Source: Thermococcus barossii (GTDB lineage Archaea; Methanobacteriota_B; Thermococci; Thermococcales; Thermococcaceae). Taken from it: 64,000 bases of DNA. Of this stretch, positions 45,676 to 47,474 are shown one piece after another; within the stretch, counting starts at the first letter, position 1, and each line of letters opens with the position of its first letter. The stretch lies in contig NZ_CP015101.1 in the NCBI RefSeq assembly GCF_002214465.1, positions 751,013 through 815,012 of the forward strand, in the 5' to 3' direction. The notes under the pieces are model-generated. The model was not told the origin of the DNA, searched no databases, and saw nothing but the letters and a program-made list of their open reading frames with translations. The position numbers were made by a program, and so were the translations under genes.

Positions 45676-46305
45676 ATGGGATACAGAACGCTGAAGGGAA
45701 TCGGAACGGCGGAGCTGGTGGTCAGGAAGTCGGTCTTCATAGGCTACGCCTCGCCGGCGGATACCGAGGAAGACGCCAGGGCGTTCATAGCGAAGATAAA
45801 GGCCCACCACAGCGATGCAACGCACAACGTCTCCGCCTATCTCATCAACGATGGGAAGAACTTCGCGGTTCGCTACGATGACGACGGCGAGCCGAAGGGC
45901 TCGGCCGGAAAGCCGGTTCTCAAAGTCATCCAGAACAAAGGGCTGAGCAACGTCGTCATCGTCGTCACCCGCTACTTCGGCGGGATAAAGCTCGGCTACG
46001 GCGGCCTCGTCAAGGCCTACAGCGATGCGGCAAGCCTTGCCGTTGAAAACGCGGGGATAGTTGAGGTCTATGAAATGGAACACTTTGAGGTTACCCTTCC
46101 ATACAGCTTTTTTCACACAGTCAGGGAAACGATCGAAAAGGCAGGAGGAAGGGTCGTCGGGGAGGAGTACGACGAAGTGGTCACCTTCACCGTCGAAACG
46201 AGGAAGGGCGAGGCCGAGAGACTGATGGAGCTTTTGAGGGAGCGGACGATGGGCAGGGCGCGGCTGAGAAGGCTCTTCATGGCTCCCTTCGAGGGGAACC
46301 TTTAA
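45676..46305 (+). CDS. IMPACT/YigZ-family protein
   Basis: A 209-aa UPF0029-type protein. The N-terminal half has the family core: KSVFIGYASPADTEEDARAFIAKIKAHHSDATHNVSAYL, DDGEPKGSAGKPVLKVI and VTRYFGGIKLGYGGLVKAYSDA. The C-terminal DUF1949-like part follows. Bacterial and eukaryotic relatives touch ribosomes or Gcn1; the archaeal role is unknown. GGGTGA in the preceding gene end serves as ribosome binding site, so it is coupled to the HAD gene. Confidence 0.9.
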   Translation: MGYRTLKGIGTAELVVRKSVFIGYASPADTEEDARAFIAKIKAHHSDATHNVSAYLINDGKNFAVRYDDDGEPKGSAGKPVLKVIQNKGLSNVVIVVTRYFGGIKLGYGGLVKAYSDAASLAVENAGIVEVYEMEHFEVTLPYSFFHTVRETIEKAGGRVVGEEYDEVVTFTVETRKGEAERLMELLRERTMGRARLRRLFMAPFEGNL

Positions 46306-46307
46306 AT

Positions 46308-46354
46308 TTACACGGCATGTAATTTACATGGGGTGTAAATTACATGGTATGTAA
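46308..46354. promoter_or_regulatory. Array of three TTACA-N5-TGTAA palindromes over promoter and start codon
   Basis: Three identical-arm palindromes follow each other with an exact 16-bp period: 46308-46322, 46324-46338 and 46340-46354. Each is TTACA, five variable bases, TGTAA. The first touches the TATA-like TTTAAATTT (46301-46309); the third contains the proposed ATG (46344). The central unit extends to TTTACA/TGTAAA, and the overlapping TGTAATTTACA/TGTAAATTACA is an 11-bp perfect inverted repeat. Such placement fits a repressor that blocks transcription of the ATPase gene. Confidence 0.75.
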
Positions 46355-47474
46355 AAAGTTCTTCCGGACGCGGCCGGTGATGGAGGCAGACTGCCTCTGG
46401 GGAGAGGGACATAAAAGGGCAGCGGAAGACGTTCTCAATGCGGTTCTCCGGGGCAATGCTGCAATACTTCTCGGACCGAGGAGGGTTGGAAAGACAAGCG
46501 TGGTCAGTGTGATGGCGGAAAAGCTGAAGAGGAAGCGCGGACATCACTACATCTACTTCAACTTCTCCAGATTCCTGGGAGCAAGGGCAATCTCAATATC
46601 TGATATAGAGCCAAGGAGAACGTCTTTGAAGATGATAACGGCTAGCAAGAGCTACACTGTATCGTTTAGGGGCATCAGCGTTGAGGTCAGGAAGACGAGC
46701 ATCGAAGAGTTCAGCAGGGACTTTTCAACACTGGTCAGGGTTCTTTCCCAGAACTCCCGGCTGGGCGTCCTGATATTCGATGAGGCCCAGGTTCTTGCGA
46801 GGCTGAAGAACCTTGACTTCAGGGGACTTCTGCAGGAGATAACGGACAGCTACCCCAACATCTCCCTCGTCTTCACGGGCTCAATGCCCGGAATGTTGAT
46901 TGAGTACCTGAACCCAGGCCCCTCAAAGCCCAACTTCATGCGCTCCGCTGAGGTGTTCACCCTACCTAGATGGAACAGCGAAGAGGGGAAGGCCTACCTC
47001 ATGGAGGGCTTCAGGAGCTACGGAATAAGGGTAACGAACGAACTGGAGCTGTCGAGGGCCGTCGAGGAGCTGGGGGGAGTTCCCGGCTTCATCTCCCATT
47101 ACGGCCTCACCGTTGTAAATCTCGTGAGAAATGGAAAAGACCCGAAAGAGGCGCTTCCGATGGCCCTTGAGGAGAGCAGGAGGTACGCGCTCGATGAGTG
47201 GCGGAAGGACATAGAGGCATTTCTAAACGTCTACAACAGCGAGGTATACATGGGTGTCCTTGAAGTGCTGGCCAAAGCATACCCCAGCGCCCTCAGGGGA
47301 GCCGAGGTTTACAGGAAGCTCCAATCCCTTGGCATTGCCCCTGCCAGGATACAACATGTCTATAAATACCTTGAAACACTGGAGAAAGCGGGCTTCGTCC
47401 GCTCCGCGGAGAAGAGGTACTGGATTGAAGACCCACTTCTTCGTGAGGTCGTTGAAAAATTCAGTCTCCACTGA
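46344..47474 (+). CDS. Archaeal ATPase (ATPase_2 family) with C-terminal winged-helix-like region
   Basis: A 376-aa STAND-like P-loop ATPase of the family expanded in archaea. Walker A ILLGPRRVGKTSVVS (about residues 41-55), Walker B LGVLIFDEAQVLA, sensor-1-type LVFTGSMPGML, and a lid with EELGGVPGFISHYG. The last 90 residues (EVYRKLQSLGIAPARIQHVYKYLETLEKAGFV) look like a winged helix, so the protein could bind DNA, possibly the palindrome array overlapping its own start. ATG 46344 has GGGGTG 8 nt upstream; an ATG at 46380 is the alternative and would leave the array entirely in the leader. Confidence 0.82.
   Translation: MVCKKFFRTRPVMEADCLWGEGHKRAAEDVLNAVLRGNAAILLGPRRVGKTSVVSVMAEKLKRKRGHHYIYFNFSRFLGARAISISDIEPRRTSLKMITASKSYTVSFRGISVEVRKTSIEEFSRDFSTLVRVLSQNSRLGVLIFDEAQVLARLKNLDFRGLLQEITDSYPNISLVFTGSMPGMLIEYLNPGPSKPNFMRSAEVFTLPRWNSEEGKAYLMEGFRSYGIRVTNELELSRAVEELGGVPGFISHYGLTVVNLVRNGKDPKEALPMALEESRRYALDEWRKDIEAFLNVYNSEVYMGVLEVLAKAYPSALRGAEVYRKLQSLGIAPARIQHVYKYLETLEKAGFVRSAEKRYWIEDPLLREVVEKFSLH

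Follow-up and report, generated by a model that had tools for sequence, protein, structure and literature searches.

Archaeal ATPases of the SSO1545/PABY2304 type (2FNA, 2QEN; ATPase_2/AAA_14) occur in multiple copies in many Thermococcales genomes, and to our knowledge they have no established role; in the literature we searched, we found no operator or DNA target for them. The ATPase considered here is like these proteins in combining an AAA+ core with a C-terminal winged helix, although it differs in that its match to PF01637 ATPase_2 (29.4 bits) lies below the curated cut-off of 33.2, and we therefore regard it as a relative rather than filing it as an ATPase_2 member. Archaeal Orc1/Cdc6 initiators, which recognize repeats in DNA, frequently close to the gene that encodes them, share the AAA+ domain and the winged helix but are a weaker fold match, and in comparison with their origin boxes the sites described below are short A+T-rich palindromes lying across a promoter and a start codon.

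Two further systems bear a likeness to this locus. The TrmBL1 motif, TATCAC-N5-GTGATA, likewise has arms of about 6 bp and an N5 spacing and lies over promoters; however, the arms here are TTACA/TGTAA rather than TATCAC/GTGATA, which sets the array apart from a TrmBL1 operator, and TrmBL1 has a regulon, whereas here there is one tandem for one gene. STAND-type regulators, such as MalT and the mycobacterial IniR (PMC5760070), likewise join a signal-type ATPase to a DNA-binding domain, and the AAA domain of IniR has been likened to SSO1545 (PMC5760070). These proteins regulate operons elsewhere and contain sensor domains, whereas the only visible target of our ATPase is its own promoter, and we found no sensor domain in it.

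The window, by which we mean the whole 64,000-nucleotide stretch of Thermococcus barossii DNA that we analyzed, contains three TTACA-N5-TGTAA palindromes with a period of exactly 16 bp between positions 46308 and 46354 (Table 1), as an earlier note on this sequence had claimed. The same note placed the first unit in contact with the TATA box and the start codon within the third, and both placements hold: the TATA box, CTTTAAATT, occupies 46300-46308 and the stop codon of the upstream gene, yigZ, falls inside it (46303-46305). The array thus starts at the TATA box and reaches into the fourth codon of the ATPase gene, and its sites overlap the promoter elements from TATA through the start codon. 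Of the six positions in the Thermococcus kodakarensis consensus GGDGRD (PMC4247193), the probable ribosome-binding site matches five. Since the median distance from TATA box to transcription start in T. kodakarensis is 23 bp and the median leader is 16 nt (PMC4247193), we predict that transcription of the ATPase gene starts near 46327-46331, inside unit 2.

Table 1. Features of the array and the ATPase gene in the window, with five recognition-helix/palindrome pairs of paralogues
Feature	Position	Strand	Details
BRE/TATA promoter of the ATPase gene	46294..46308	+	GGGGAAC-CTTTAAATT region; from sequence; same distance in most orthologues
Operator unit 1	46308..46322	+	TTACACGGCATGTAA; from sequence; orthologues keep the arms, center free
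Operator unit 2	46324..46338	+	TTACATGGGGTGTAA; from sequence; best-conserved unit among orthologues
GGGGTG, probable ribosome-binding site	46330..46335	+	Within unit 2, 8 nt 5' of the ATG
Operator unit 3	46340..46354	+	TTACATGGTATGTAA; holds start codon 46344-46346; ATGG constant in 20/21 distinct orthologous arrays
Archaeal AAA+ ATPase, proposed autoregulator	46344..47474	+	376 aa; P-loop GPRRVGKTS, Walker B LIFDE
C-terminal winged helix (predicted)	47241..47471	+	Residues 300-376; recognition helix 336-349, wing 353-360; AlphaFold2 model
Paralogue helix SERRAKEVLKNL			Palindrome GTGA..TCAC
Paralogue helix SDRSLTRILKNL			Palindrome TATGGA..TCCATA
Paralogue helix INDSNFSxLLENL			Palindrome ACTTGCA..TGCAAGT
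Paralogue helix INDAKFSxLLKNL			Palindrome ACTTACC..GTAAGT
Paralogue helix TNARLSALLKNL			Palindrome AGTATCG..CGATACT

When up to one mismatch was allowed, the window held 5 sites against an expected 0.39, a number that none of 100 shuffles reached. The genome-wide search for tandem palindromes that the note had recommended returned this locus alone in the 1.92-Mb genome, and in the absence of a second tandem there is no visible regulon. A reversed control pattern gave no matches in 61 genomes of the genus at up to two mismatches. A CRISPR or long tandem repeat was rejected as an identity for the array, which is just three 15-bp palindromes, and so was a plasmid or viral origin, as nothing in the plasmid or phage collections matched.

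We compared the promoters of 26 intact orthologues of the ATPase (56-97% identity) from four genera of Thermococcaceae. The note had held that absence of the array from such promoters would speak against its function; at least two units, with no more than one mismatch per pair and in the same 16-bp register, lie upstream of 25 of the 26, the exception (G050) retaining about 1.5 units. In other genera the ATPase gene is located away from yigZ and the array still stands in front of it: all 12 extra-genus genomes with an intact gene carry the array, and among the matches listed for these genomes none with up to one mismatch lies away from the ATPase gene. Given that the array precedes the orthologues even at unrelated loci, we conclude that it is linked to the gene.

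The note had also proposed that only the five central bases vary, which is true of the three units in the window but only in part among the 21 distinct orthologous arrays. There the center of unit 1 is free, while the center of unit 2 is a nearly invariant GGGG followed by TG, the GGGG being fixed in this unit only, and the ATGG of unit 3 is near-fixed. Since unit 2 carries the ribosome-binding site and unit 3 the start codon, the centers are set partly by translation signals, and the arms, which are strongly though not absolutely conserved, represent the constraint of the array itself. It is the sequence of the arms that is kept, and not mere complementarity. Positions 6 and 10 of the units are mostly a pyrimidine (C/T) and a purine (A/G), respectively, and do not pair (TG 21, TA 17, CA 7, CG 3, GA 1).

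The ATPase itself matches the Pfam family AAA_14 above its cut-off (41 versus 27 bits), and the residues G44, G49, K50, T51, D146, and E147 of its Walker A/B AAA+ core are invariant. Although the match of its C-terminus to HTH_69 is below the Pfam cut-off, the AlphaFold2 model (mean pLDDT 92.3) predicts this region with a block pLDDT of 94-96 over residues 301-370, as helices at 300-312, 319-328, and 336-349 followed by a two-strand wing, so that what the note had called a winged-helix-like C-terminus is now a confident winged helix-turn-helix prediction. The nearest structures are 2FNA and 2QEN by both sequence and fold, followed by Orc1/Cdc6 and RuvB by fold. With a Walker A/B core and, in the model, a C-terminal winged helix, the protein is an ATPase of the SSO1545/PABY2304 type. 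Known models of defense systems gave only weak P-loop matches to it. In all orthologues with TTACA arms the recognition helix is near-constant, QH[VI]YKYL.

Close members of the ATPase family number roughly 1 to 13 per Thermococcaceae genome, with none in some genomes, and 124 of them were aligned. Almost all of their promoters have a palindrome between the TATA box and the start, with arms that stay constant inside a recognition-helix class and differ from class to class; some 20 paralogue classes thus display different palindromes at the same position, and the list of helix/palindrome pairs runs beyond the five given in Table 1. In the genome of the window, the two nearest paralogues of the ATPase have pairs of their own: ACTTGCA..TGCAAGT occurs nowhere else in that genome, and a relaxed pattern for ACTTACC..GTAAGT matches at one additional site there. 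Among 33 representatives, no two of which reached 70% identity, the palindrome between TATA and start was significant at p<=0.05 in 23 and at p<=0.01 in 16, the remainder falling short of significance, compared to 2 of 53 other genes with a palindrome at p<=0.05 in a similar region, a control drawn from genes of the window only. In the window's genome, 10 of the 16 PF01637-type genes have a significant palindrome.

When recognition helices were at least 75% identical, their operators matched at 13.4 of 14 bases, as opposed to about 9.6-10.4 otherwise. Similarity of helices and similarity of operators were correlated (Mantel, p=0.0005), also when the AAA domain was controlled for (partial Mantel, correlation 0.230, p=0.0005); however, the AAA domain likewise correlates with the operator given the helix (0.256), so these correlations do not separate common descent from recognition. 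The results suggest that helix and operator have coevolved, with shared ancestry as a possible contributor, and the class of the ATPase's predicted DNA-binding domain matches the class of its operator, with ancestry not fully separated.

Some longer relatives in the window's genome (G000) also show palindromes. PF01637 genes with a frame of about 470 aa (for example, 1006839, 1747380, 185324, and 174676; L180, L183, L184, and L186) have shorter A+T-rich palindromes, GAGTATTATACTC, GATATTAAATATC, and GATTATCATAATC, immediately before or across the ATG. The palindrome rule may therefore reach these longer ATPases as well. Separately, class I genes (L154, L160, L162, L170, L173, and L210) have a hairpin 5' of the TATA box, the stem of which varies in sequence by genome and keeps its position (e.g., AACTTCGCAACGCGAAGTT and CAACCTTTGCTTGCGCAAAGGTTG).

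Taken together, the family-wide match of classes, the winged-helix model, and the linkage of array and gene make an array read by the ATPase itself the best explanation. We consider it probable that the array serves the ATPase gene as a private operator, which the protein would bind through its C-terminal winged helix to repress its own synthesis. As a dimer or higher oligomer, the ATPase would sit on each TTACA-N5-TGTAA site, with as many as three sites filled at intervals of 16 bp (about 1.5 turns). TATA box, predicted start of transcription, and start of translation would then all lie under bound protein, which would block transcription of the gene and hold the ATPase at a low level. Its ATP/ADP state would perhaps gate this repression. 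We infer the ATPase as the binder, repression as the effect, the cooperativity, and any nucleotide control. A 16-bp period places adjacent sites on near-opposite faces of the helix, an uncommon arrangement where cooperativity is of the simple side-by-side kind.

The autoregulation that the note had suggested for the ATPase gains strong support from the gene-linked unique array, from the winged-helix model, and from palindromes that follow helix class, but arrays that stand alone do not fit it in its simple form. Nine Thermococcus genomes without the ATPase (G007, G013, G014, G019, G021, G025, G035, G058, and G059; loci L045, L049, L082, L051, L053, L055, L059, L065, and L066) keep two or three units at the same junction between yigZ and a helicase gene with an MrfA Zn-binding domain. 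These orphan arrays have the symmetrized form GATTTTTACA-N5-TGTAA-n-TTACA-N5-TGTAAAAATC with T5/A5 flanks, the TATA box is gone, and yigZ and the helicase gene are convergent. In four two-unit orphans all 26 arm positions are identical, versus a third-codon identity of 0.50-0.55 in yigZ for most pairs, and the adjoining DNA is not alignable by eye; in G014, G019, and G035 some units are partly decayed. If autoregulation were the sole role, the array would be expected to vanish with the gene, and these nine genomes retain it. The orphans thus lessen the support for autoregulation only, which by itself does not explain them, and leave that for control of the promoter undiminished. The idea of a second protein with the same winged helix in the orphan genomes was rejected, the closest class-A-like winged helix elsewhere in them being a 36% partial match.

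In a yigZ tree, the deep support of which is weak, the orphans are scattered among ATPase carriers, and the orphan G021 is sister to the carrier G049. The yigZ of G021 (L053/L081) is near-identical to that of G049 (L076), while its array and helicase end match those of G058 (L080), which indicates that alleles have been exchanged; allele replacement through recombination with a breakpoint close to the array probably accounts for this. At a different locus in G029 (L250:2039-2085, G029:C8), some 20 codons of a decayed ATPase remain behind a two-unit array that is intact. The genome of the window itself holds, between convergent genes, a single operator, GTAAGTAACTTACGGGGGCATAAGTTCATG (L251:800-828; G000:C1, about 1867105), that belongs to another class and has no ATPase after it. 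Four ATPase pseudogenes were also found, among which the array is decayed in G005 and intact in G010 and G047. Considering the orphans, the G029 remnant, the lone operator, and the broken genes together, loss of the gene that leaves the operator behind is recurrent.

Intact arrays in genomes without the ATPase are what would be expected if an unrelated host transcription factor read TTACA-N5-TGTAA, the ATPase gene being merely its sole target in this genome, and in its N5 spacing the palindrome is like Thermococcales operators already known, among them the TrmBL1 motif. However, each of the roughly 20 paralogue classes would then need a dedicated factor of its own, and the array travels with the gene to other loci and, orphans aside, has no other target; we therefore regard it as unlikely. 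A position between convergent genes with T5/A5 flanks could also point to a function in RNA, either as a bidirectional terminator in the orphan form or, before the ATPase gene, as a leader hairpin that hides the ribosome-binding site, and the predicted folds are strong (at 37 C, -20.9 kcal/mol for the full array and -11 to -14 kcal/mol for the orphan form). Yet with transcription starting where predicted, the mRNA would include only some 30 nt from the 3' end of the array region, and the fold of a transcript begun in unit 2 is unstable (-2.0 kcal/mol). A stem would also permit compensating changes, whereas the arms have the same sequence across large divergence and positions 6 and 10 show no covariation, and A+U-rich stems would be weak near 85 C. 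The unstable transcript and the lack of 6/10 pairing argue for recognition of the array as DNA, and we give a role in RNA very little credence.

A mobile or replicative function seems just as improbable. The palindromes would here serve an Orc/Cdc6-like ATPase in the manner of iterons, or mark one end of an element that delivers the ATPase and leaves a scar upon its loss. It is true that Orc1/Cdc6 and RuvB are the next-closest folds, that the gene occupies different loci across genera, is often broken, and is missing from the same locus in close relatives, and that G029 has a decayed copy with an intact array elsewhere. On the 3' side of the gene, however, we saw by eye no matching inverted end or target duplication and found no full palindrome unit, and the plasmid and phage collections contained no match. 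Moreover, in most classes the sites are fitted to the TATA box, the ribosome-binding site, and the start codon, and ordinary recombination, as in G021 versus G049/G058, would be enough for gain and loss.

The reading that we favor, a private operator bound by the ATPase that it controls, rests on an ordinary principle, autoregulation. The array is new as a description within the open-access literature we searched, where we found no earlier account of it; the unusual points are the matched diversification across the family and an operator that outlasts its gene. More tentatively, and with doubt outweighing our confidence, the Thermococcaceae ATPases may be mutually insulated, self-binding AAA+ regulators, each copy diversifying its recognition helix in step with a private palindrome that lies across its own TATA box, ribosome-binding site, and start codon. 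The arrays might then also have a further function that persists after loss of the gene, given that alleles lacking the ATPase retain them in fully symmetrical form. The orphan arrays pose the question of what reads the same DNA once the ATPase is gone. A private operator at the start of each gene would give every ATPase a DNA target that can be read from sequence and tested, and some 20 natural recognition-helix/operator pairs would provide material for learning the specificity of winged helices.
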